From an uncultured Geobacteraceae bacterium (GTDB taxonomy: Bacteria > Desulfobacterota > Desulfuromonadia > Geobacterales > Pseudopelobacteraceae): a DNA stretch of 33,260 bases. Both the position numbers and the translations under genes were made by a program. Location of the stretch: contig CAIRND010000396.1 of assembly GCA_903879825.1 (NCBI GenBank), positions 1-33,260 on the forward strand, read 5' to 3'. The first letter of the stretch is position 1. Every line of letters begins with the position of its first letter. Below the pieces are notes generated by a model. The model was given only the letters and a program-made list of their open reading frames with translations, was not told where the DNA came from and made no database searches. Shown piece after piece: positions 13,740 through 33,260 of this stretch.

Positions 13740-16700
13740 TTATTCTGTTTTTTCCTGACATGATTCCTGAGCAACCCTGTTGAACTCCACAAATTCTGCT
13801 TCAAGCTGAGTCACCCGTTCGCTCAACTCTTCACAGCCTCCATCACGTGCCATCATTTCCAGATAAGAGGCACTCTCTACCATTTTGTGAGCAGATATGT
13901 TGGCTGACGCCCCTTTGATTGAGTGGGCCTGGAGGCGTATCTGTTCGACATTGCCGCCCTCTACCGCCAGTCGCAGTGCTTCAAGGTATCCGGAAACATT
14001 TTTTTCAAACAGGATCAGAAAACGCTGCAGCATGTCATCTTTTCCACCAAGCCGTACCAGCAGCCCCTTTTTATCGAAAACCAGGACGGTCTCAATATTA
14101 TTTTCCGGAATATTCGGAGTAGCGGGGCTGTTCAGTTCAACGTTAAGCGCCGCAATGCGTTTCAGAACGGTCACGATATCTTCCGGCTGAAACGGCTTAC
14201 TGATGTAATCATCCATACCGGCTTCGCGACACCGCTCCATATCTTCTTTCATAGCATATGCGGTCATGGCGATGATCGGGATATGCCCTCCCCCGGCACG
14301 TTCCCGTTCACGTTCACGAATCATACGGGTAGCCTCGAAACCGTCCATAACCGGCATCTGAACATCCATAAAGATAAGGTCATAACTGCCATCAGCGTCC
14401 TGCCACGCCTGCACCGCTTCCTCTCCATTTCCGGCGATGGTGACGGCATGGCCATAGCGCGCCAGAATTGTCTCAATGAGGATCTGGTTGATCTGAACAT
14501 CTTCAGCGACAAGAATAGCAAGCCGCTGCCTATTTTCCAAAATTTGATAGCGGGTTACCGGGATGTTTTCCGCCTGTCCGGGAGAGCTTCCGGATGAAAT
14601 AAGCAGGCACAGCAGGTCATGCACTTCCGTATGAATGATCGGTTTGGTGAGATAGCCGTCAACCCTCAGCTCACGGCAGCGCTTAGAATCGCCGCGCATG
14701 CCGGCGCTGGGGAGCAAAATGCAATGAACAGAGTCATGGACCGGTTGCCGGCGGATCTGCTCGACCAGTTGCCAGCCATCGCATTCCGGCATCTGTACAT
14801 CTATCAAGGCAAAATCGAAAGGGGCGGCCATCCGGGTTGATTCATCAAGCATCTTCAGTGCCGTGGCTGCATTTTCGGCTGCGGTGACGCGGAGACCCCA
14901 TTTGCCAAGAAAATTTGCCAGAATATCGCGATTTGTGGCGATGTCATCAACAACCAGCGCGGAACACCCGGTGAGAGGCAGCTCGTGATGTACCGCAGGC
15001 GGGATCTGCTGAATCCCAAAGCGGGCGGTGAAGATAAAGGTGCTTCCCGAACCGAGCTCGCTTTCCACCCGGATGGTGCCATCCATTAACTCAACAAGAC
15101 TCCGGGATATCGTAAGCCCCAGACCGGTGCCACCATATGATTTGGTGGTTGAAATATCCCCCTGCTCAAAAGGGTCAAATATTTTGCCCAGTTTTTCCGG
15201 GGCAATTCCGATGCCATGATCCTGGATACTGAAAGAGAGGGTACACATTTCTTCATCTTCTTCGACCACCTGAACCGATACGATCACCTGCCCACGAGCG
15301 GTAAACTTGATGGCGTTGCCAACCAGATTAATGAGTATCTGTCGGAGACGTCCGGGATCGCCGATCAGGGCGTCGGGGATCTCCGGTGCCGGGTCGAAAA
15401 GCACCTCCAGCCCCTTCTCCGTTGCCCGTACGGCAATACCCTGCAGTGTCTGGCCGATGGTCGTACAGAGCAGAAACGGCACATCGTCACGTTCAATTTT
15501 GCCAACTTCTATCTTGGAAAAATCAAGAATATCGTTAATGATCGAGAGCAGATTATCAGCCGATCGCTTCACGGCATTCAGATATGTTTGCTGCTCTGCG
15601 TCGATTTTAGTCGTCAGGCATAATTCCGTCATGCCAATGATACCGTTCATCGGGGTGCGGATTTCATGACTCATGTTCGCCAAAAACGTGCTCTTGGCCC
15701 GGCTGCCAGCTTCGGCCATGGCGATGGAGTCACGCATGTCTCGCAGATATCGACGCATTCCGGTGACAAGAAGAATGAGTGCCGCTCCGGAAATGAAGAC
15801 CAAGATGGTAAACTGAAATTTCACTATGCGTAACTGTTCGACATCTGTCATCGCAGCATAGGTAAATATGGTATAGCCATCCTTGCTTGGCTGGCTGCGC
15901 GCCAAAAGGAAGCGATTGTCGCTTTCGGGCAGGGTAAGTGAGGGGTATGCGGAAAACTGAGCCCCAAAGTTTCCAATGTTCAGCACCTTAAAATCGCGAC
16001 GTTTGTACTGTTTATCACGAGCGGTTGTCGTCATCTGGAAAACAGGAGCATCATTAAGAGCATGCAGATCTATGCGCTTGTCGCTGGAAAGAATGACCAC
16101 TCCGGAGGCATCAGTCACAAAACAGTTGAAGCGGTTAAACCATTGGGAAAGCGTGGTCACGTCGATTTTGACGGTCACCGCACCAATGACGCGCAGTCCG
16201 TCATAGATGGGGGCTGAAAAAAACAGACCCGGAATATTGGTCTGGCGACCAACTGCGTATTGCCTGCCCCGCATACCTTCTTTCGCGCTCTTGAAGTACG
16301 CTCGATCGGAATAACTGATGCCCACAAATGATTCGGGGCGGTCATGATTGCTGCTGGCGATGCAGTCTCCATTGGCGGCCAAAACCCAGATAACATCAAC
16401 ATTCAATTCTTTCTTCTGTGCTGCCAGATGGTGATTGAGGTCGGCAACATCGTTGCGGGAATTGAGAAATAGCCGTTTGTCGGCGGGAGATTCTTTTTCC
16501 CAGGATGATTGCCGTTCCAGTGAGCGCAGGGTGGTTATAACCGTCAGGTTATCAGCAATGGTTTCCGGCATGACATTCAGAAAGGCCAGTGAGCGCTCAA
16601 AGTGGTACGTGACCGCTTCAGCCGTCTGATTCAGTTCAGTGGAATGCTGTTTAAAGTCCGCAGCGAGGCGATTATCGGTAAAATATGACACCGCGAAAAA

Positions 16701-16844
16701 AGAGAGGAGCAACCAGCCAGCCAGCATTCCGAGCAGAGCACCTGACGGGCGCGGAAACAGAGTGGCGGATATATTTTTCTCCGGCTGCTTCTGCACGGCA
16801 CCGGATGGTGACGGAGGATGCGGGTATGGCGAATTCACGTTCAT
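13740..16844 (-). CDS. Hybrid sensor histidine kinase: dCACHE-like periplasmic sensor, HisKA, HATPase_c, REC, REC, HPt
   Basis: H-box [42 protein letters not shown], two REC domains ([30 protein letters not shown]), HPt [16 protein letters not shown]. Confidence 0.95.
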
Positions 16845-16875
16845 TGAGGGCGCTCCATTCGCGTGTGGATGTTCG

Positions 16876-17985
16876 TCATGCCAATCTTTCTATATCGCAG
16901 TTATGCACTCGATCCTCTTCCGGTGCATCCTGCAGTTTTTCCCTGATCGCGACGAAGTCATCAATATTGCCCAGAAACAGGTCCAGAAGGATTGGATCAA
17001 AAAACTCGCCACGCCCCTCTATCATGATCCTGAGCGTCTTATCAAGCGGAAAAGCCTCCTTGTAGGGGCGTTCAGAGGAGAGAGCGTCAAAGACATCAAC
17101 TATGGAAACGATCCGGGCGAAGCGGTGAATTTGTTCCCCTTTGAGCCCTGAAGGGTAGCCGCTGCCGTCCCATTTTTCATGATGCTGCAGAGCGATGATG
17201 CTGCCGGTATCAATGACAGGAAAGCGTTCCGCTTCGGATAATATTTTGCCGCCGATGGTGGTATGAACCTTCATGATATCAAATTCGGTCTGGTCGAGCT
17301 TGCCCGGCTTGAGCAGAATCCGGTCAGGAATGCCGATCTTGCCGACATCGTGCAGCGGAGAAGCAAAACGCAGCACCTCACATTCATCTTCTGTTATGCC
17401 GCCTAGTTGTGCCAGTCGTTTGGACAGTTCGCTGATGCGCCTGGTATGCATGCCGGTTTCCATATCACGAAATTCTGCGGCACGCCCCAGACGGAGCGAA
17501 ATTTCGTATTCAGCTTCAAGGGACAGGCTGAGCGCTTTCTGCAGAGCTGCAGTCTTTTTGACTACCTCCCCTTCGAGGACGCTGTTCATATCTTTTGCCA
17601 GATCGGAAAGTTTTTTGCTGCGAACATGGTTCATGACCCTCAGCCGCAACTCCTCAGGATTATACGGTTTTGCAATAAAATCATTGGCACCCAGTGCCAG
17701 CGTTCGCGTTACTTCGGTGGTTCCCGAAGTAACCACAATCACCGGGATATCCCGCCAGCCGGCACTCTGCTTGATGCGTTTGATCGTTTCGTAGCCATCC
17801 ATGACCGGCATCTCAAGATCTAACAGCACAACATCAATTGCTGCCCCAGTCTCTAATACTTCTAAGGCCTGTAGCCCGTTTTCAGCCTTCAACAGCGTGC
17901 AATCGAGGTCAGACAGCATTACGTCAAGCATCTCCAGATTCATGCTGTCATCATCAACCGCCAGTATGGTTATTTCATCAAACAT
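16876..17985 (-). CDS. REC-HD-GYP response regulator (putative c-di-GMP phosphodiesterase)
   Basis: REC (ILAVDDDSMNLEML, VVLLDLEMPVMDGYE, KPYN) and HD-GYP motifs (SPLHDVGKIGIPD, LQHHEKWDGSGYPSGLKGEQI, RIVSIVDVFDAL). Confidence 0.95.
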   Translation of the reverse strand: MFDEITILAVDDDSMNLEMLDVMLSDLDCTLLKAENGLQALEVLETGAAIDVVLLDLEMPVMDGYETIKRIKQSAGWRDIPVIVVTSGTTEVTRTLALGANDFIAKPYNPEELRLRVMNHVRSKKLSDLAKDMNSVLEGEVVKKTAALQKALSLSLEAEYEISLRLGRAAEFRDMETGMHTRRISELSKRLAQLGGITEDECEVLRFASPLHDVGKIGIPDRILLKPGKLDQTEFDIMKVHTTIGGKILSEAERFPVIDTGSIIALQHHEKWDGSGYPSGLKGEQIHRFARIVSIVDVFDALSSERPYKEAFPLDKTLRIMIEGRGEFFDPILLDLFLGNIDDFVAIREKLQDAPEEDRVHNCDIERLA

Positions 17986-18024
17986 GACAATTCTCCATTT
18001 AACGTCATTATGTTCGGATGTTTC

Positions 18025-20706
18025 CTACTTCGATACCTCGTGCTTAAAAGCCTCTATTTCATCTACAAGCTGCGGAATCAGGGCGACAGCAGCATCCCGG
18101 CGCCCCTCCCGCGCATGAGCCTCAATGTCTGAGGCAACTGTCCAAACCCTGCGAGCGGAAATATTGCCTGCGGCGCCTTTGATACTGTGCGCCTGAGTAC
18201 GTATTAGTTCCTCGTCACCGCTTTCAACGGCGGACTGAAGCGACTCCAGAAAACAGGAAACATTTCTGATGAACATTTCGATGAAACGCCCCAGCATCTC
18301 TTCCCGGCCGCCCAGACGCTCAAGCAATTCATCCCGGGCAAACACCGGCGCCACCGCATTGGAATGTGCCGAGTTCGTCAGGCCGACTTCACCTGCCTGA
18401 CTTTGGTGCGGCACCAGTTCGTTGAGTGCGGCAATTATTTCAGAAGGGCGGGCCGGCTTTGAAAGATAGGCATCCATATCTGCAGCCAGGCATTTTTCCC
18501 GATCCCCCTGCATGGCATAGGCGGTCATGGCGATTATCGGCGTCCGTGCCGAATTTCGCCCTGACTCAATTGCACGGATTTCGCGCACGGCACCATAGCC
18601 ATCAAGGACCGGCATCTGAATATCCATAAAGATAACATCAAAGGTGGTTCGTAAAAACTGGTCCACCGCTTCCCGCCCATCCTGAGCCAGGGTTACCCGG
18701 TGTCCCTGCTTTTCAAGTGTGGCACGTAAGACCTCCCGGTTTATCTCCACATCGTCCACCACCAGAATGTCACAGTGGGATCTCTCTTCCTGAACGCTGT
18801 GACGGGTGACCAGCTCTGCGTCACCGGTTTCAACCCAACGGGTTTCAACCCCGCCGATGACCGCTGCCAGGGCATCGTGAAGCTCTTCAAGGATGACCGG
18901 TTTTGTCAGATAGCCATCGATGCGAAGCTCCTTGCAGCGACACGCATCGCCACGCACCCCGGCACTCGGCATGATCATAATCTGAATGCCGTCATACGCC
19001 TCTTCACGTCGGATCTGCTGTGCAAGGTCCCAACCGTCCATGCCGGGCATCTGGGCATCCGTCAGCACAAAACGGGGCAGTGCAGCTTCTTCACGCATAC
19101 GGGCCAGTGCCACAAGAGCCGCATGTCCATCAGAGACAAGGTGCACCTCCATCTGCCAACGGGAAAGGAACCCGTTCAACATCTGACGGTTAATGGCGTT
19201 GTCATCGACAACCAGAGCAGAAAGCCCTTCCAGACTGGCAGCAAACGCTGAGTGAGCGACAGGATTAATCTGCAGTCCGAAGCGGGCCGTGAAGCTGAAA
19301 CAGCTCCCCTCTCCCGGCGTACTTTTTACGCTGATAGTGCCACCCATAACGTTTACCAGCCGCTTTGAAATAGCAAGTCCGAGACCGGTACCGCCAAACA
19401 GTTTGGTGGTTGAGGCATCCCCCTGCTCGAAGGCCTCAAAGATGCGTCCCTGCTGCTCCGGTGTAATACCTATCCCGCAGTCAGTTACTTCAAAACCGAG
19501 CAATATACCTTCCGTTTCATGTTCGACAAGGCGGATGACCACACTGATCTCGCCGCTTTCTGAAAATTTAACCGCATTTCCGGTGAGATTTATCAGTATC
19601 TGTCGCAAACGCCCCGGATCACCGATCAACGCATCAGGCACATTGTGCTCAACATTGAAAACTATTTCGAGCCCTTTTTGGTTGGCACGAGCGGAGAGAG
19701 TCCGCAACGTCTGCCCCACCATACTGCGAAGGAGGAACGGAGATGTATCAAGATCAATGCGCCCTTCCTCGATTTTTGAAAAATCCAGAATATCATTGAT
19801 TATGGAGAGCAGATTGTCGGCGGATGTTTTGACTGAGCGAAGATACTCGCGCTGCTCCCGACCCAGCTCGGTATCCAGCACCAGATCGGTCATCCCGATG
19901 ATGCCGTTCATAGGGGTGCGGATCTCATGGCTCATATTGGCCAGAAATTCGCTTTTGGCACGACTCGCGGACTCTGCAGCTTCCTTGGCGGTTGTCAGTT
20001 CGCTCACGCGCTCGGAAATAACCCGCGACATCGTATTAAATGCAACACCCAGCTGGCCCACGTCATCGGCACCCTCCTGTACCGGTGGCGGCGACAGATT
20101 ACCGGCGGCAACTTGAAGACTCGCCTGGGTCAGGGAGGTCAGATGCCGGGTCAGCCAGTAACCGATCAGAAGCAGCACCAGTGAGGAAAGCACAATCTCC
20201 AGAGCCGCGATAGCAACGCCCTGAACCAACAGCATTTTTCGCGCGGAGACGATCTGAGACAGGTCGAGGCCAAAATGGAGTGTTCCCAGCGACTGATATT
20301 TCGTCCCAATCGGGACCACCACGTCATAGCGTGGTTCCTTTGTGGTATCAAACAGCGGCAGTTCTTTGCTCGGTTCAGGTAGCGGCTTATCGGCAGCCCA
20401 GCCACTGAAACCGGCCCGATTGCCAGCCCGGTCCACGACAACGATGTAGACAACCCCACCGGAAGAACGGCTTTCGTCGATAACCGCCTGGACAGTGACA
20501 AAATCCCGCTGGGCCAGTGGGGCGGTCAGTGCGGCTTCAAGCACCGGGTAGAACTGTTCCGCCTGTGAACGGGCTTGAGCCGTCATGGCACTATGCTGTA
20601 GTCGCAGGCTATTAAAAACCATAATCGACAGCATCAGCACTTCCAAACCTATTGCCAGAAGGAGCAAACGACCACGAACAGTATGCCGGAGAGAAAAATG
20701 CATCAT
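18025..20706 (-). CDS. Hybrid sensor histidine kinase: periplasmic sensor, HAMP, HisKA, HATPase_c, REC, REC, HPt
   Basis: Two TM segments, HAMP ([40 protein letters not shown]), H-box, [14 protein letters not shown], two REC domains, HPt [16 protein letters not shown]. The start overlaps the upstream PhnD-like stop (ATGATG). Confidence 0.95.
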
Positions 20707-21530
20707 TTCGCGCTGCTGTTAAGCACCTTTCGCACTTCGCTGGCAAATGGATCCATATCTTTCATTTCGTTCGGGCGCAGCTTGCGGTAGCCTTCCAGCT
20801 TATTAGTTTCAAAGTACATTTTCGCCTCTGGAGTGGCAGCAAATGCCCACAAAGCCGCATCAATTTTTTTCTGCAGCGCAGCGTGGCGCTTGTTCAACAC
20901 ATACACTCGGCCAGCCATCGGCTTGCTTTCGGCAAGAATTCGCAGCTGTCCACGCACAGCCGGAGTTAATTTCTGATAGTTTGCCAGCGACGTAAAACCG
21001 GCCGCCGCTTCACCGGCCAGAATCAATTGGGCGACGCTGTCCGAGGCACTGACAAACTTGACGGTTGAGGCATCAATTTTATTCTCTTTCAGCCAGTGAA
21101 TCCCCCACAGAGTCACCAGCGAGGCGGGACTCAGGCCAAACACCTGCTTGCCCTTGAGATCAGCAGCTTTGTGTATCGGACTGGCGGCAGCGACCAGTGC
21201 CACCGCTTTAAATTCTGCTTTGTAGGTGAGCATCGGCAGGTATTTTGAGTCAGTTTGAAACAGCCGCGCCTGGTGACCGGTGGTAACCGCAAGGTCAAAC
21301 TCCTGAGCCAGACCGCGACGGGCGAAGGTGTCAAAATCTTGCGCGGTGACAATTTCCACCTGCATATTCAGGGCTTTCTCCATGTACAGCCGCAATGGCT
21401 GATACATATCGAGGAGAACCCGGGCGCTGGTATGGGGGGCCACGCCGATAACAAAAGTGCCCCCGGCGCAGGCCATGCCGACAGTTACCTGCAGTAATGC
21501 CATGATGAAGAAAATTTTAATTGTTTTCAT
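20703..21530 (-). CDS. PhnD-like periplasmic substrate-binding protein
   Basis: Signal peptide, [64 protein letters not shown]...; PhnD/SBP type-2 pattern. No ABC permease or ATPase nearby. Confidence 0.85.
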
Positions 21531-21605
21531 TGTGTTGTCTCCTTTATGTGGATACCTTGCTGTAACTGTTCAGATCATGAAAAAATTATTTAAAAACCGA
21601 TTTCA

Positions 21606-21724
21606 CACGAAGGCACAAAGGCACAAAGGCACGAAGAGAACCAGAATTTATAGCTTTAACTCTTTGGAATAAACCCTAAAGACGTTGTTTTTGACTTTCT
21701 TCGTGCCTCTGTGCCTTCGTGAGA
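21606..21724. repeat. Inverted repeat with CACAAAGG units (large potential hairpin)
   Basis: Left arm cacgaaggcacaaaggcacaaaggcacgaag (21606-21636). The right arm cttcgtgcctctgtgccttcgtg (about 21699-21721) is its reverse complement minus one AAAGGCAC unit. Confidence 0.8.
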
Positions 21725-21750
21725 GTAGCTTTTTGTTCTGACCTGAGTAG

Positions 21751-24768
<3,018 letters not shown>

Positions 24769-24783
24769 TAATACCCTAATCGG

Positions 24784-25665
24784 TTACTTCATACCTTTGA
24801 AGAATTCAGGAAAATAGCGGGATGCCGTCGGATAGTATTTTTTTATAAGAGCCAGATAGGTGCCATCGTGCTGAGCTTTCTTGATAAACACATTGTACGC
24901 TTCCAGCAACTGTGGTGAATCAGGTGAAAACGCGGCAGCCATCTGCTGCTTATCTGAAACCGGGCCAATTATTTTCAATTTACCCTTCCATTTTTCAAGG
25001 GCAACCAGAGCGTCAGGCACGTCCAGAATAGTCAGATCCCCCTCTTTGTTAAGAAGCGCCGGGGCCATTTCATTGAGGTTGCCGGTGCGGCAGATCACCG
25101 AGGCTCCGGTGGCAGCCAGGTTGTACAGTGTCGGGTCAAGGCAGGTCTTTTCCATGGAAAGAACCGTTTTGCCTTTCATCAGAGCCTTGGTAAGTTGGAT
25201 ATCCTTGTCGATATTCTTTGTCGGCTTGATTGGCTTAATACGCGAGTCTGCCCGGGCAATCAGCCAGATCTGGTTCGGGAAGGTCGGAGTTGCAAAACGG
25301 ACAACCTGCTGTCTCCAAGGGATTACGGTAAAGCCGTTGGCAATCATGTCTCCTTTTATCGGAGCATTTTCAAGTAGTTCGGCTTTGCCGCCGGCAACCT
25401 TGATTTTCTTTCCGATCAGGTCCTGAACAACAACTCCCCAGTCACTCTGCACGAACTCATAGGTTACCCTCAGGGACTTGGCAAAGAGCTTGGTCAGTTC
25501 GACTTCCATGCCATCGCCGGCACCGGAGACAAAGTTGGCATAGGGAATTCCGATGTGGCGGATAACGCCACGTGTCTTTATTTCGTCAAGGTCCGCGCCG
25601 AAAACCAGCGTTGCAAGCATACACGTCATAATCAGGCTTGATACAGCGGTAATCCATTTTTTCAT
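24784..25665 (-). CDS. SBP_bac_3-family periplasmic solute-binding protein
   Basis: Signal peptide (MKKWITAVSSLIMTCMLATLVFGA), DEIKTRGVIRHIGIPYANFVSGAGDGMEVELTKLFAKSLRVTYEFVQSDW...; the stop lies 15 bp before the start of the next hybrid kinase gene. Confidence 0.87.
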   Translation of the reverse strand: MKKWITAVSSLIMTCMLATLVFGADLDEIKTRGVIRHIGIPYANFVSGAGDGMEVELTKLFAKSLRVTYEFVQSDWGVVVQDLIGKKIKVAGGKAELLENAPIKGDMIANGFTVIPWRQQVVRFATPTFPNQIWLIARADSRIKPIKPTKNIDKDIQLTKALMKGKTVLSMEKTCLDPTLYNLAATGASVICRTGNLNEMAPALLNKEGDLTILDVPDALVALEKWKGKLKIIGPVSDKQQMAAAFSPDSPQLLEAYNVFIKKAQHDGTYLALIKKYYPTASRYFPEFFKGMK

Positions 25666-25762: not shown

Positions 25763-27352
25763 TTAGTTAAGCCTGAAACCCGACGTTGAGTTTTTTAAAT
25801 CCTTGGCCGTTATCGTAAGCTCGGCTATTTCTCTCAGTACGTTTTTTTCCACCTCCTTGTTTGAGTTAGCAACATCTGACACAACCTGCATATTGTTGTT
25901 AATTTCATGGATTGTTGAAGTTTGTTCTTCAGCAGCGGTGGCGATCTGGCATATTTGGTTCGTTACCGTACCTATCTGCTCAAGGATTTTCTCGAGCGCC
26001 TCACCCGATCTGGCCGCTTCCCGTGTTCCCTTCTCAACCTCCTGAACCCCTTCCTCCATTGATTTAACCGCTTCTTTGGTTTCTGACTGAATTGTTTTGA
26101 TCATGGCGCCGATTTCTTTAGTCGCTCTGGTGGTTCTTTCCGCCAGGGCACGGACTTCATCTGCCACCACGGCAAAACCGCGCCCCTGCTCGCCCGCTCT
26201 CGCCGCTTCTATCGCCGCGTTCAGCGCAAGCAGGTTGGTCTGATCGGCGATATCTTCAATGGTGCCGACTATCTCACCGATCTGGTCGGATCGGGAACCG
26301 AGGCTTTCCACCGTAGAGGCGGTGTATGTCACACGTTCCGCGATGGTCGTCATTACCCGGAGGGTGTTTTCAACTACTTTGGCACCGTCCTGGGCCATGA
26401 CATCGGCCTGCCGGGCGCTCTGCTCAGCCAGATGGCAGTTGTTGGCGATTTCTCCCGACGTTGCCGCCATCTCTTCATTGGCGGTGGCGATCTGTGTAAT
26501 TTGATTGATCTCCTGCTCTGAACCTTCAGACACCGCCTTTGATTCCTGGCTCAACTTGTCAACAACGGTCACAATGTTGCTCGAGGAAACCGATATTTGG
26601 CCTATCAAAGTTCGAAAGGTCTGAACCATATCGCTCATGCTCGAACTGAGTATGCCGATTTCATCCCCACTTTCGTGGCTAAAGTTAACGGCCAGATTGC
26701 CGCTTTTTAACTCCGTTACGTTGCGAGTTAATGCTTCCAGCGGTTTCAAAAAATATCTCGCCATCATGTACACAAACCCGGTCAGCACAATTGTCCCAAG
26801 AAGGCCCAACGCCGCGAATAAATATTGATAATTGTTTATTCGGGCACGTGAGTCAGTCAGTGAAACGCGGATAACAACCGCCCCCAATACCGTCCCTTCA
26901 GGTACGTTGTGGCATTCCAGACAGTTTTTACCTGCGCTTTTGCTTTGGGCAACATAGGGGTAGATGCCCCTGATCATGTCCCCCTCAAACAGAACTTTGG
27001 CCACCCCCTTGTCAATGGCCTCCTGCTCATACTTGTCTTTCGCATAATCTTCGACACCCCCCTTGCCAAAATCTTTATCCAGAGCGGGTGAGCGAATGAT
27101 TCTTAAATCAGCGGTCTGCTTCATCTGGGCGATGAATGAATCTACGTTACGCGCAATATCGGCGCCGCTCATCATCGATGTTATGGAGATAAGCACGGTG
27201 TCGCGCAGCTTGACCATGGTAGATTTTTCAATTTCCGCGACCACCACCTGGCGCGCAGAGTAACCGGTAACAAAAACTGTCGCCATGACGCCAATAGCGA
27301 CACAGGTTACAATGGGTATAATCAGTTTCCAGCGCAGCGATGTTTTGTTCAT
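25763..27352 (-). CDS. Methyl-accepting chemotaxis protein with periplasmic heme-c (Tll0287/DUF3365-like) sensor and HAMP
   Basis: CXXCH in [28 protein letters not shown] ([23 protein letters not shown]), tip [41 protein letters not shown]. Confidence 0.93.
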
Positions 27353-27372: not shown

Positions 27373-27606
27373 TTAGCTGTTGCTCGCAATATTTATTTTA
27401 GAAAAACGCTTTATTCTTCCGTCCAAATAACCAGCTACCATATCGATACGCACAACATCGTCATGGGAAATAGAATTCAGTTCATCCTCATTCAGGTCAT
27501 AACCAGCCTCCCGGCTGACGCACACGATGGATTCTCCGGCCCGTTTCCGGAAATGATCGTCCGTCAGCAACCGTCCTAATAACCGCTCTACCGCTTCCTG
27601 GCTCAT
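27373..27606 (-). CDS. Small protein resembling the NHLP-clan/Os1348 leader-like family
   Basis: [68 protein letters not shown]: the [18 protein letters not shown]...GYDLxxxEL pattern recalls Os1348/NHLP proteins. The ATG at 27606 follows GGAGAAGCTT; the listed start at 27669 overlaps a candidate promoter. Confidence 0.65.
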
Positions 27607-27620
27607 AAGCTTCTCCATAC

Positions 27621-27637
27621 TGTACTTTTTTGGAACA
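27621..27637. promoter_or_regulatory. Operator-like motif copy 1 (TGTACTTTTTTGGAACA)
   Basis: 16/17 identical to 27732-27748; imperfect dyad TGT-N11-ACA. Confidence 0.45.
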
Positions 27638-27731: not shown

Positions 27732-27748
27732 TGTACTCTTTTGGAACA
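27732..27748. promoter_or_regulatory. Operator-like motif copy 2 (TGTACTCTTTTGGAACA), candidate enhancer site
   Basis: 16/17 identical to 27621-27637; about 95 bp upstream of the plus-strand sigma54 promoter. Related half-site TTGGTACA at 27761-27768. Confidence 0.5.
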
Positions 27749-27840: not shown

Positions 27841-27855
27841 TGGCACCCTCCTTGC
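27841..27855 (+). promoter_or_regulatory. Sigma54 (-24/-12) promoter TGGCACCCTCCTTGC
   Basis: Exact match to TGGCAC-N5-TTGC in the intergenic region, predicted start near 27866, upstream of the GTG at 27934. Confidence 0.8.
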
Positions 27856-27933
27856 TGACGGATTTGAAGTGACTGGCCGTTTTTTCCGCAGGCTAAATCC
27901 AACCTCCGCGGCAACAGTAGGAATAATCCAATA

Positions 27934-30510
27934 GTGACAGTTAGTTGTAACGACATTGCCGCAATAGATCTTTTCAGTGGCCTATCGCAGGAAGATCTGC
28001 AGCGTATCGCCGTTCGTCTGGTTAAGTGTGTCTTTTTGTCCGGAGTGGTCATTATGGCCAAGGATGCACCGGTTGAAGAGTTATATGTGATCCTTGCCGG
28101 AACGGTGCGGGTCGAACTACACGACGGCACCGGGCAGATATTCAACCTTACTGAGCTGACCGCCGGGAATCTGATCGGGGAGCGCGCCGTCCTCACTGAT
28201 GAGCCGCGCACCGCCGATGTCAGGGCGATCACCGAGGTCCACGCGGTGCGGCTGTCAAAGCACGACTTCAAAGAGCTGCTCCATGAAACGCCGCTGGTGT
28301 ACGCCAATTTATGCCGAATCCTCTCCCTACAGCTTGGGAGTTGGTCACAGCGACATCAACGGGAGGAGCGGGAGCACCGCGACATCATCACCAATGTTAT
28401 TGGCTGGCAGCTGTTGCCGGAATTCGGCGAATTCCCAGGGAGCTCCGCCTGGGTTCGCGATTTAAACAAACGCCTGGAACTGCTTGGAAAATCCGACTGT
28501 CATGTGTTGATTGTGGGGGAAGCGGGCACATGGAAAGATTTAGCCGCCCGGCTGATTCATTTCCACAACGACTCCAACTGCCCGGTCCTGTTTCTGGACT
28601 GTGCCTCCCCTCCGCCTGTCATTGGCCATGAAAATCTTCATACGACCTCGTGCCGTGATTCACTGCTGCAAGAGATTGCCCAGGAAGCGGCTCTCTTCGG
28701 GCATGCGCCGGACGGCGCGGTGTATACCCGGCGAATCCGGCGCGGCATGCTGGAACTGGCGGCCGGAGGCGATATGATCCTGCGCAATATCGACTGCCTG
28801 ACAGCGGCAGTGCAGGAACAGTTGAGCAATTTCATTGCAAGCGGCCTGTTTCGTCGCAGGGGGGAAAGCAGCCAGCGCAGCGCACAGGTACGCTTTATTG
28901 CCACCTGTAGCGAACCGCTCCAGCCGCTGGTCGCCAGCGGGAAGTTCTCTGCAGCTCTTGCCGGGCAGTTAAGCGGCGAGACGATTGAAATGGCCCCGTT
29001 GCGGGAACGCAAGAAAGATATCGCCGTTATTGCCCGCAGCCTGCTGAAAAATCTTAACGCCAAGCACCATAAAAATGTCCGCCGCATTTCTCAAGATGCC
29101 CTGAACCGCCTGGTTGATCACGACTGGCCGCTGAACGGCAGCGAACTTTATCAGGTCGTCAGCCGTGCTGTCGTCGTTTGCAACGACGAAGAGATCCTTC
29201 CGGAGCATATATTTCTCCAGGGACAGCCATTTGGTGACGGTCGTTTCAACCTGCTGACCCTACCGCTGATCGAGAAGATTGCCCGGCGGCCCGACTTCCC
29301 CCGGCTGCTGCGCTGGAGCACCATACCGCTCTTTCTGCTGATTATGCTTTATACGCTCCTGGGACCTCCGTTCGGCAATGCCGCCAATCTGGCGGTCTGG
29401 ACGCTTTGGTGGCCGGCGCTGCTACTGACAGCTTTTTTGTGTGCTCGCGGCTGGTGCAGCTTTTGCCCATTGGAAGCGATCGGCGAGTTTATCGGCGTCA
29501 AAAACCGGGTCACCCATGAGCCGATGCAGTGGTTGCGGCGCTTTGGCCCGCCCATCAGTCTCGCCGGGCTCGTATTTATTGTGCTGATCGAACAGGCAAC
29601 CGGCATGTTCTCCTGGGCCTTTGCCACCGGACTGCTGCTGTTCGGACTGTTAACGGCAACCGTCTCTGCCGATCTGATCATCGGTCGACGCGGCTGGTGC
29701 AAATTTCTCTGCCCTCTCGGCAGGATCGTCAGCCTGGTGTCACGAATCTCCCTGATGGAGATGCACAGCAACCACACCGTTTGTGTCAGCAGATGCCGGG
29801 TTGACGATTGCGTCAAGGAGAGGGGATGTCCTATGGGACTGCATCCCACCGGCATCGACAATTCGGACCATTGCGTCCTCTGCCTCAACTGTGTGCGCAG
29901 CTGTCCCCACCACTCCATGCAACTCGACCTGCGCAATCCAGTCTGGGGACTTTTCAATCAGGCACGTCACGGCTTTTACGAAGCACTCTTCAGCGTCGTC
30001 CTGGTGGGGGTTGTCATTGCTACCAAAGGGACCCCGCTGCTTGCAGGCCGGACTAACGAGGTTTTTCCGCAGACGCTTTGGAGTCTGACAGAAGCCGCGC
30101 TGGCACTTGGCATTGTGATCGGATTCACCGGACTTGCCATGATGTCGTCAGCGAGTAGCGGCCGTTCCGGCTGGAAAGCGACCTTCACCATGTGCGGCCT
30201 TGCGTATCTGCCGTTATCTGTTGCCGGGCTTTTCATAATCTACTTCAGGGCACTGGTCGAGGGGGGCGCTCAGCTCGTCCCGCTCATTATCACGGCAACT
30301 GGCGTGGGCAGCTGGCTTGATGCCGCCAGGCTGACCCCGGAATTGGGAACACTGCGGCTGTTTATTTATCCCACTCTGGTAATGAGTGCTCTCTTCTCAT
30401 GGATTGTTCTCGGCAGAATGCAGCGCCAATATAAGCTGAACCCTTCCGCCCTTGTCGGTCACCGCCTGCTGATAATCCTTGCGGCGTCGGCATTCATCGT
30501 TACCCTGTAG
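27934..30510 (+). CDS. Fusion protein: cNMP-binding (Crp-type) domain, degenerate sigma54-type AAA+ domain, polytopic membrane 4Fe-4S (NapH/NosR-like) module
   Basis: cNMP fold (FSGLSQEDLQRIAVRLVKCVFLSGVVIMAKDAPVEELYVILAGTVRVEL...NLIGERAVLTDEPRTADVRAITEVHAVRLSKHDF); AAA-like remnant (LIVGEAGTWKDLAARLIHFHN... MAPLRERKKDIAVIARSLL... DHDWPLNGSELYQVVSRAVV); membrane Fe-S motifs (CARGWCSFCPLEAIGEFIG, GRRGWCKFLCPLGRIVSL, HCVLCLNCVRSCPHHSM); C-terminal TM helices. Confidence 0.88.
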   Translation: MTVSCNDIAAIDLFSGLSQEDLQRIAVRLVKCVFLSGVVIMAKDAPVEELYVILAGTVRVELHDGTGQIFNLTELTAGNLIGERAVLTDEPRTADVRAITEVHAVRLSKHDFKELLHETPLVYANLCRILSLQLGSWSQRHQREEREHRDIITNVIGWQLLPEFGEFPGSSAWVRDLNKRLELLGKSDCHVLIVGEAGTWKDLAARLIHFHNDSNCPVLFLDCASPPPVIGHENLHTTSCRDSLLQEIAQEAALFGHAPDGAVYTRRIRRGMLELAAGGDMILRNIDCLTAAVQEQLSNFIASGLFRRRGESSQRSAQVRFIATCSEPLQPLVASGKFSAALAGQLSGETIEMAPLRERKKDIAVIARSLLKNLNAKHHKNVRRISQDALNRLVDHDWPLNGSELYQVVSRAVVVCNDEEILPEHIFLQGQPFGDGRFNLLTLPLIEKIARRPDFPRLLRWSTIPLFLLIMLYTLLGPPFGNAANLAVWTLWWPALLLTAFLCARGWCSFCPLEAIGEFIGVKNRVTHEPMQWLRRFGPPISLAGLVFIVLIEQATGMFSWAFATGLLLFGLLTATVSADLIIGRRGWCKFLCPLGRIVSLVSRISLMEMHSNHTVCVSRCRVDDCVKERGCPMGLHPTGIDNSDHCVLCLNCVRSCPHHSMQLDLRNPVWGLFNQARHGFYEALFSVVLVGVVIATKGTPLLAGRTNEVFPQTLWSLTEAALALGIVIGFTGLAMMSSASSGRSGWKATFTMCGLAYLPLSVAGLFIIYFRALVEGGAQLVPLIITATGVGSWLDAARLTPELGTLRLFIYPTLVMSALFSWIVLGRMQRQYKLNPSALVGHRLLIILAASAFIVTL

Positions 30511-30533
30511 GCTATCAATTCATCGCTAAAACG

Positions 30534-30569
30534 AAAAAGGGCCACCATGCATTCGTGGTGACCGTTTTT
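30534..30569. terminator. Rho-independent-type terminator, possibly bidirectional
   Basis: AAAAAGGGCCACCA-loop-TGGTGACCGTTTTT shortly after the stop at 30510. Confidence 0.65.
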
Positions 30570-30652
30570 CTGATCTTCGTCCATTATATCATTGCAGTGT
30601 TAGCTAGGTCTTTGCATATGTTATTTATCCACATGTTTGGTGTTATTTTTAG

Positions 30653-30818: not shown

Positions 30819-32558
30819 TCATTGCAACACTTTGTAATGCTGGAAGTTATCTCTCCCCTGATCCTTAACCCGGTAGAGAGCAATGTCGGCATTTTTCAAC
30901 AGTGTCTCAGCATCTCCGCCAGCGTCGGGGAAATCAGCGATGCCGATGCTGGCTGTTACCGTGAGAGTATGGCCGTTGCAGACAAACGGTTCACGGAACG
31001 CGGTGACTATCTTTGCGGCGGTAACAGTCGCACTCTCCGCCGAACTGATATTCGGCAGCAACATCACAAACTCATCCCCTCCCATGCGGCACACCGTATC
31101 GCTTTTTCGCAGGAGCCCCATCAGTCGTACACCAACAGCCTTGAGCAGCAGATCACCGACACTATGGCCGAGCGTGTCGTTAACATCCTTGAAACGATCC
31201 AGATCCAGGATCATCAGCGCCCCACAGCTGCTGGATCGACCAGACAACGCAAGCACCTGCCCCAGACGGTCGTTGAGCAGGACCCGGTTAGGCAGTCCGG
31301 TCAGGGCATCATGAAAGGCCATGTGACGAATGGCCTCTTCATAGAGTTTGCGCTCAGTGACGTCGTTCAGCATCAGCACGAACCCGGCCAGCGTGCCGCG
31401 CCTGTCCACTATGCCGGACAGGGTACCGTCGTAGAAACAGGCGACCCCATCCCGCTTGATTTCAGCCGGAAAAAGACATTTACCCTCTTTTTGAACAATC
31501 TCCCGCGCCTGGTGCAGAGTCAGCGGAGCAATATCTTCCAGAGCCAGCAATTCCAACGCGGGACGACCAATGACGTTAGCAGCGCTGCAGCTAAATACTT
31601 TTTCAGCTAACGGATTAAAATATTTAATATTCAGAGTAATGTCTGTCGCTATAATTGCCATATTAACAGAAGAGCTGAGAATGTTGTCCAAGTACACCGT
31701 CTTGTCCAGTAGTTCTCTGGCGGTATGCTGGAAGACATCCTCTTTTTCCCGGATAATCTCCTTCAGCAACTCGATATACTTCCCCTCCAGACCCTTGACG
31801 ATGTCGGACTGAGTGATTATTCCCGCAACACGATCCTGCTCATCAACCACCACCACGTGGCGGAAAAGTTTTTTCTTCATCTGCAGGGTGGCTTTATGGA
31901 CTGTCGAACCGGTTTTGACGGTCAGAACGGGGTTGCTCATGACGCCCTGAACGCAAACTGTTCTTAAATCAACGCCGTCCGCCACCAACCTGACCACATC
32001 ACGTTCTGTCAGTATTCCAACCGGACGGCGCTCGTCCACAACTACCGTGCAGCTTATGCCCGGACCAGCCATTGCAGCCAGGGCATCACAGATGGGGATG
32101 TTACCCGCCACCGTCACGACACCGGGAGTCATGACCTGCTCGACCTTGCGCATTTCAAAAAAATATTCGTGCCCCAGATGATCGACCAGATCGGATTGAG
32201 TCATCAAACCGAGGAGCTGGCCGCTCGCACCTACCACCACATGGTGACGTATCCGGTTGGTGAGCATAAGGCTGTACGCTTCATAAATACTGAGTGAACC
32301 GGATATTGTGATGACCGGACTGGTCATCACCTCGCGCATCGTCTGGCTGCCAATGGCGAGTTGCTGGTTGGCAAGCCTGACCAGATCCCGTTCGGTGAAG
32401 ATACCGCAGGGCCGCTTGTTTTGGGCCACAACAAGACAACTGATTTTTGAACCCGCCATAAGGGTAACAGCCTCATCCAGCGAGGTTTCCGGGGTTACAC
32501 ACTTTATTCGCCGGGAAATGATCTGGCGGATCTTTGTCTTACTTATCGGTTCGGTCAT
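30819..32558 (-). CDS. 4xCBS-PAS-GGDEF diguanylate cyclase
   Basis: Four CBS repeats (e.g. MTSPVITISGSLSIYEAYSLM, MSNPVLTVKTGSTVHKATLQM), PAS, and GGDEF (DALTGLPNRVLLNDRL; RKSDTVCRMGGDEFVMLLP) with an RxxD I-site. Start probably ATG 32558 (MTEPISKTKIRQIISRRIK) rather than 32624. Confidence 0.92.
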   Translation of the reverse strand: MTEPISKTKIRQIISRRIKCVTPETSLDEAVTLMAGSKISCLVVAQNKRPCGIFTERDLVRLANQQLAIGSQTMREVMTSPVITISGSLSIYEAYSLMLTNRIRHHVVVGASGQLLGLMTQSDLVDHLGHEYFFEMRKVEQVMTPGVVTVAGNIPICDALAAMAGPGISCTVVVDERRPVGILTERDVVRLVADGVDLRTVCVQGVMSNPVLTVKTGSTVHKATLQMKKKLFRHVVVVDEQDRVAGIITQSDIVKGLEGKYIELLKEIIREKEDVFQHTARELLDKTVYLDNILSSSVNMAIIATDITLNIKYFNPLAEKVFSCSAANVIGRPALELLALEDIAPLTLHQAREIVQKEGKCLFPAEIKRDGVACFYDGTLSGIVDRRGTLAGFVLMLNDVTERKLYEEAIRHMAFHDALTGLPNRVLLNDRLGQVLALSGRSSSCGALMILDLDRFKDVNDTLGHSVGDLLLKAVGVRLMGLLRKSDTVCRMGGDEFVMLLPNISSAESATVTAAKIVTAFREPFVCNGHTLTVTASIGIADFPDAGGDAETLLKNADIALYRVKDQGRDNFQHYKVLQ

Positions 32559-32621
32559 GATCAGGCACCTCATCAGGTTTGCGCACATTGGTTGCATCAT
32601 ATAACACTTATTATTTCGCAG

Positions 32622-32716
32622 CAAACCCCTCTAAATCTCCCCTTATCAGGGGAGACTTCAAGGCTTCCCCCCTGATAAGGGGGGATTGAGGGGGGTTGGT
32701 TTTAGATGTTCCAAGG
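32622..32716. repeat. MITE-like palindromic repeat, copy B (inverted relative to copy A at 8376-8490)
   Basis: acccctctaaatctccccttatcaggggagacttcaaggcttcccccctgataaggggggattgaggggggttggttttagatgtt. Confidence 0.75.
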
Positions 32717-32764: not shown

Positions 32765-33260
32765 TTAATCCCGATAGAACATCTTCCTGTCTATTTTCAA
32801 CAATTGGGCCGCTTTGGATTTGTTGCCACTGCAGCGTTCAAGTGTCTGGGCAAGTATCTGGCTGGTCAGATTGGCAAGCGACAGGCTGTGCGTTGGACTT
32901 TTCAGGGTGTAGGTGGTGGTAGAGGGATCAGAATCCGCAGTTTTTGATGCTGCGGACTCATCCGTGATCAAGCCGAGATGTTCGGGGCGGATCAGGTCAC
33001 CGACCGTGAGTATGGCTGCACGCTCAAGACGGTTGCGCAGTTCCCGGACATTACCGGGCCACTCATAGGCGATGACAGCATCCATTGCTTTCTGTGAAAT
33101 CCCGGGCAGTAACTTCCCGAGATGCTGCTGCAGTTCGGCAACAACATGCTCGCAGATATGCCCGATGTCGTCTTTCCGTTCGCGCAGCGGCGGGATATGC
33201 AGAGGAAATATATTGATACGATGATACAGGTCCTCGCGGAACAGTCCGGCGGCCACCCGC
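32765..33260 (-). CDS. NtrC-family sigma54-dependent activator, C-terminal part (truncated by right edge)
   Basis: AAA+ C-terminal signature (GLFREDLYHRINIFPLHIPPLRERKDDI, YEWPGNVRELRNRLERAAIL) and Fis-type HTH (LTSQILAQTLERCSGNKSKAAQLLKIDRKMFYRD). Confidence 0.93.
   Translation of the reverse strand, partial: RVAAGLFREDLYHRINIFPLHIPPLRERKDDIGHICEHVVAELQQHLGKLLPGISQKAMDAVIAYEWPGNVRELRNRLERAAILTVGDLIRPEHLGLITDESAASKTADSDPSTTTYTLKSPTHSLSLANLTSQILAQTLERCSGNKSKAAQLLKIDRKMFYRD

Follow-up and report, generated by a model that had tools for sequence, protein, structure and literature searches.

A family of proteins fusing cNMP-binding, degenerate sigma54-activator-type AAA+ and membrane Fe-S domains in Geobacterales and beyond

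Within the window, a stretch of 33,260 nucleotides of DNA from an uncultured Geobacteraceae bacterium, one gene (27934..30510, + strand; 858 aa, with a GTG start and the stop codon included) encodes a cNMP-binding domain, an AAA+ domain of the sigma54-activator type that has lost its catalytic motifs, and a polytopic membrane module with invariant cysteines. We read its product, tentatively, as a cNMP- or nucleotide-gated membrane Fe-S electron-transfer protein of the NapH/NosR kind, with a cytoplasmic head made up of the cNMP and degenerate AAA+ domains; this is the account that we favour, at somewhat less than even weight. Because the ATP-burning parts and the DNA grip have been lost and a membrane Fe-S part has been fused, gene activation seems unlikely, and the probable task of the protein is to adjust electron flow or to sense redox state rather than to switch genes on. 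An earlier note on this DNA had proposed that an activator became a sensor, in the membrane, of redox state or nucleotides, or else a regulated electron-transfer protein, and from the comparisons described below this still appears to be the best reading.

Domain layout and distribution of the fusion

The cNMP-binding domain (aa 34-117; 28033..28284, on the + strand, as are all the features of the gene given below) matched Pfam cNMP_binding over its length (1e-17) and is followed by a highly conserved linker (aa 126-164; 28309..28425). The AAA+ core (aa 165-350; 28426..28983), identified by Pfam, phmmer and alignment, matched Sigma54_activat over residues 170-347 (5e-19), the lid (aa 351-430; 28984..29223) matched AAA_lid_14 over 357-426 (2e-15), and Fer4_5 was matched at 488-521 (2e-6); all of these matches lie above the gathering thresholds. 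Hydropathy averaged over 13 homologues predicts nine TM segments between residues 458 and 858. Profiles and hydropathy thus agree with the earlier description of a single ORF joining a cNMP domain, a domain derived from sigma54 activators and a multi-TM Fe-S module. The Sigma54_activat score of 69 bits, against a cut-off of 20.2, places the core within the bEBP AAA+ family, and a phmmer comparison of the window protein with NtrC-family structures gave 6e-27; the earlier note would have abandoned its reading on finding a complete ATPase site or no AAA fold, and we found a strong AAA+ match with an incomplete site.

No profile match to an HTH was obtained after the lid of the window protein; the chain passes from the lid directly into TM segments, as had been supposed. 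VpsR is a non-canonical activator of the EBP family and is among the sequence matches to solved structures, and such non-canonical activators make conceivable a transcription regulator working through sigma70 or needing no ATP hydrolysis. These EBPs, VpsR included, do share with the fusion an EBP-type AAA+ domain that works non-canonically, but they retain the DNA-binding HTH, whereas the fusion is membrane-bound, carries Fe-S motifs and has nine TM segments where the HTH would be, and we regard a regulator of this kind as very improbable. The HTH is missing from about 4% of EBPs (PMC3162934).

Full-length versions of the fusion were found in about 27 of 98 genomes from the same genus, family and order, with a patchy distribution in Geobacterales and whole-length identities of 59-79% (main clade) or 35-37% (second clade); diverged fusions occur in 20 of 395 genomes spread across the phylum. 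These counts rest on the wider genome search, a single-sequence scan of contigs having given only two Geomonas loci. Phyla beyond that of the window were sampled through plasmid records, and these yielded one member, a protein of 904 aa with the same five Pfam matches, on plasmid AP018309.1 of the cyanobacterium Aulosira laxa NIES-50. At this locus (L128, AP018309.1 69590-80195) a cysteine synthase gene starts 18 bp after the fusion gene, and a PetC-type Rieske gene, an ArsP-type permease and MerR and Rrf2 regulators lie in the vicinity. The viral contigs scanned held no relative. These counts answer in part the question, raised in the earlier note, of how far the architecture extends. The conservation of the full-length fusion in dozens of genomes disposes of the concern that a sequencing error had joined separate genes, and on this record the architecture is a real family rather than a fusion artefact. 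In a tree of AAA+ domains, one branch, with support of 98/99, splits the fusions from active bEBPs, which is compatible with a single origin. A full-text search of open-licence papers returned no study of the architecture, which is weak evidence of novelty.

Lost catalytic parts of the AAA+ domain

In order to compare the AAA+ sites, 29 fusions were aligned with 15 active bEBPs, which nearly always retain every site except sensor I. The three motifs quoted in the earlier note lie where it had placed them: GEAGTWKD at residues 195-202 (28516..28539), GAVYTR at the position of the GAFTGA loop (261-266; 28714..28731) and MILRNI at Walker B (281-286; 28774..28791). Its claim of a degenerate Walker A stands in one part, since the replacement of Gly200 by Trp is a real lesion, and needs refining in the other, since in sigma54 activators Glu normally comes directly after the P-loop Lys and the KD of the window protein is therefore near normal. 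The Walker B Glu is absent from 29/29 fusions and present in 15/15 controls, and the Walker B Asp is lost in 27/29 fusions; neither the GAFTGA loop nor arginine finger 1 survives in any of the 29, finger 2 survives in two, and the sensor II Arg is lost in 27/29. The window protein itself has W200 in Walker A, R284 and N285 in Walker B, and S339 and Q345 (arginine fingers) and S403 (sensor II) at positions that hold Arg in all controls. The fusions thus belong with bEBPs such as NtrC, NorR and PspF in the family of the AAA+ core and lid, but differ from them in having lost Walker B, GAFTGA, the arginine fingers, sensor II and the HTH.

The P-loop Gly is replaced by Trp in 8/8 rows of the main Geobacterales clade, within which the substituted P-loop, GExGTWK, is itself invariant, and is retained in 16/17 rows from elsewhere in the phylum as well as in the cyanobacterial member. 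The earlier verdict of a catalytically dead domain thus extends, by motif loss, to the whole family, and ATP hydrolysis is excluded family-wide on motif grounds. Because the catalytic motifs are lost while the P-loop is mostly intact outside the Geobacterales clade, nucleotide binding would still be possible there; inside the clade it is doubtful.

The dN/dS estimates (AAA core 0.157, lid 0.065, linker 0.061, ferredoxin loop 0.031, cNMP domain 0.204) are all approximate because dS is high (1.2-1.5). Since purifying selection acts on a core and lid whose catalytic residues are lost, these are kept as a pseudo-ATPase, 'not junk', and not as a sigma54 activator. A decaying fusion, in which the AAA part has no present function, would account for the long branches and variable catalytic sites of the AAA domains, and one relative (L031, G003:C49), possibly a decaying copy, has an insertion in its AAA part and has lost the N-terminal cNMP match; the low dN/dS of core, lid and linker and the invariance of GExGTWK in the main clade speak against decay, which we already disfavour and consider most unlikely.

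Membrane Fe-S module and proposed cytoplasmic inputs

TM1-TM4 (29305..29745) carry the motifs CxxCP and CxxxCP (C508, C511, C589 and C593), and the ferredoxin-like loop that follows (29782..29904) holds C617, C621, C626 and C632 together with C647, C650, C653 and C657; five more predicted TM segments (aa 679-858; 29968..30507) complete the chain. All 12 cysteines are invariant in 18 diverse homologues of 23-72% identity to the window protein, mostly 23-37%. The number of helices and the positively charged loops suggest that, if the head is cytoplasmic, the CxxCP/CxxxCP motifs and the ferredoxin-like loop (585-680) lie on that same side. An AlphaFold2 model built from three sequences had a pLDDT of 35 and was discarded.

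The best profiles for the C-terminal half were NapH and NapH/MauN (TIGR02163, NF007013; E 1e-10), with which it shares a TM core with CxxCP/CxxxCP and a cytoplasmic 4Fe-4S loop, but it scores far below their cut-offs (40 bits against 213), has five extra TM segments and bears the cNMP/pseudo-AAA+ head. The NosR profile was matched weakly (E 3e-6); NosR/NirI are likewise polytopic membrane Fe-S proteins with a regulatory link, but the fusion gave no match to an FMN-binding domain, and its head, predicted to be cytoplasmic, is cNMP plus pseudo-AAA+. With Fer4_5, CxxCP/CxxxCP in a TM context and a 4Fe-4S loop, the window protein is, by these sequence features, a member of the broad NapH/NosR-like superfamily, and neither NapH nor NosR proper. 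The C-terminal half also occurs alone, as a protein of about 455 aa (e.g. L088:1432-2799), whose genomic neighbours were uninformative as to a partner; because it exists alone, and best resembles NapH/MauN, the head has the look of a regulatory addition. We predict that the module holds Fe-S clusters and that electrons pass between it and quinol, and the invariance of the 12 cysteines, while the AAA catalytic residues vary, favours the gated redox reading. The remoteness of the NapH similarity, and its confinement to the Fe-S part, count against it.

The phosphate-binding cassette of the cNMP domain, IGERAVLTDEPRTADVRA, has the pattern G-E ... R-[ST]-A, with G82, E83, R92, T93 and A94; of these, G82, E83, R92 and A94 are invariant in alignment A1. 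The domain resembles in sequence the regulatory domains of PKA/PKG and shares the canonical cassette with Crp/PKA-type proteins, but is without their winged helix or kinase partner. The canonical cassette is retained across the Geobacterales members, and four class III cyclase matches were found in the draft genome of the window organism; both support a cNMP-gated redox protein, and the window protein is predicted to bind cAMP or cGMP. Many members outside Geobacterales have lost the cassette Arg, so cNMP cannot serve the whole family as ligand, and this too weighs against the gated reading. In some relatives the N-terminal domains are swapped, with extra FHA (L069, L074) or two GAF domains (L070), as would be expected of a signal input.

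In the mechanism that we propose, electrons would pass between the (mena)quinone pool and clusters at the cytoplasmic face through the membrane Fe-S part; binding of cNMP, and in lineages with an intact P-loop perhaps also of ATP or ADP without hydrolysis, would shift the conformation or oligomeric state of the head, and this shift would gate electron flow or access of a partner. AAA+ domains of the sigma54-activator type oligomerise, and the head might instead be a structural scaffold, in which pseudo-AAA+ domains assemble into a ring or oligomer and so bring membrane Fe-S units and a soluble partner enzyme together, ligands exerting little control. The strong conservation of lid and linker, which rank among the best-kept parts of the protein, would suit a scaffold, but the canonical cassette in Geobacterales and the swapped FHA and GAF inputs suggest signalling, and we think a scaffold rather unlikely.

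Promoters, neighbouring genes and the role of the family

The fusion gene looks monocistronic, with a terminator-like hairpin followed by a T run downstream (30533..30570, + strand; z -2.0) and a divergent gene upstream (27373-27618, - strand) that encodes a small protein of the Os1348/Frankia_peptide (Nif11-like) RiPP-precursor type. Between the starts of these two genes lie two 17-bp palindromes, TGTACTTTTTTGGAACA (27621..27637), a possible activator site, and TGTACTCTTTTGGAACA (27732..27748), for neither of which a strand is assigned. The core occurs exactly only twice in the draft genome, in these two copies upstream of the fusion gene, but no regulon can be read from the element because the genome holds seven matches against six for the reversed control. 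Elsewhere in the window, all on the - strand, are a chemoreceptor (25763-27352) with a CxxCH haem motif (NCLECH) in its sensor part, suggesting a c-type haem sensor; a four-CBS/PAS/GGDEF protein (30819-32624); a bEBP of intact appearance (32765-33259), truncated by the contig end to its C-terminal part, with both arginine fingers, PGNVREL and an HTH-like end; and a run of genes (13740-25665) in which solute-binding proteins, PhnD-like and of family 3, are interspersed among three hybrid histidine kinases that have Hpt domains.

Upstream of the gene, TGGCACCCTCCTTGCT (27841..27856, + strand) is a perfect match to the -24/-12 element, for which TGGCACG-N4-TTGCW is quoted as the consensus (PMC2725144). 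The form TGGC-N7-TTGCW lies 84-103 bp upstream of the start in 9/22 loci (shuffle mean 0.07), and the window gene and eight homologues carry this sigma54-type promoter. A scan of the window for -24/-12 elements with one mismatch allowed was no richer than chance, so the call rests on the conserved sequence and distance. In the draft genome the RpoN DNA-binding domain was found, at a contig end, and Sigma54_AID was not.

No conserved neighbour was seen among 22 Geobacterales loci or at the diverged loci, and the absence of a neighbour that would name a donor or acceptor counts against the gated redox reading. An intact NtrC-type regulator adjoins the fusion gene in two lineages, divergently at 192-196 bp (L050/L051) and on the same strand at 94-105 bp (L113/L117). 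A link to a specific histidine kinase/NtrC pair (L050, L051, L054, L055) was dropped, the kinase family being widespread in the order.

NosR and NirI are membrane Fe-S proteins required for gene expression, and they provide a precedent for the main rival to the gated reading, in which the Fe-S part would act as a sensor of quinone or redox state, and the catalytically dead AAA+ domain would poison the ring of an active bEBP as one of its subunits, or tether that bEBP at the membrane, so switching a sigma54 regulon off. Such an anti-activator would fit purifying selection on a catalytically dead core and lid, the sigma54-type promoters and the adjacent NtrC-type regulators. However, across about 40 loci an adjoining bEBP was seen in just two lineages, genomes of the order often hold the neighbouring two-component kinase whether or not they hold the fusion gene, and the fusions have lost the arginine fingers, through which one subunit reaches the next. 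A homologue also exists in the Cyanobacteria, of which 29 genomes are all reported to be without sigma54 and its activators (PMC3162934), two exceptions in the phylum being reported separately (PMC12316311); sigma54 was not found on plasmid AP018309.1, searched alone. Since the phylum is reported to have sigma54 rarely or not at all, sigma54 activation is unlikely as the general role of the head, and we consider the anti-activator an unlikely, if serious, alternative.

A second promoter type occurs in the family: a GTATAC box is present in 12/22 homologue promoters (0.78 expected), and two loci (L047 and L057) have both elements. Across seven loci from Geomonas and its close relatives (128 kb), 15 GTATAC copies occur, and 13 of them fall within the fusion-gene promoter. 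Further Geomonas copies (loci L143-L145, L149-L151 and L099/L101/L103) precede nuoA (4-5), the ATP synthase (b-subunit) operon (2) and gltA, encoding citrate synthase (3); gltA, atpG and nuoA are among the genes downregulated by HgtR (PMC7726332). The box is a candidate operator of an HgtR-type regulator of central metabolism, and because it is shared with nuoA, the atp operon and gltA it ties expression to respiration and ATP synthesis, pointing to a role for the fusion gene in core energy metabolism. It is absent before the window copy, and this counts against the gated reading. We entertain as a possibility, though a doubtful one, that the family is a new class in which a pseudo-AAA+ nucleotide-sensing gate integrates cNMP and adenylate state and controls membrane Fe-S electron transfer, the genes of the family being regulated, in Geobacterales, together with those for Complex I, ATP synthase and citrate synthase.

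AAA+ domains of the EBP type are known as transcription machines, and here a whole family is without the catalytic parts, the sigma54 contact loop and the DNA grip. Annotation may misname such fusions, as with the Aulosira laxa NIES-50 member, annotated 'nitrogen assimilation regulatory protein', and EBPs would be over-counted wherever every Sigma54_activat match is taken as an activator. If the proposed gating is true, second messengers and energy state would directly control respiratory electron flow.
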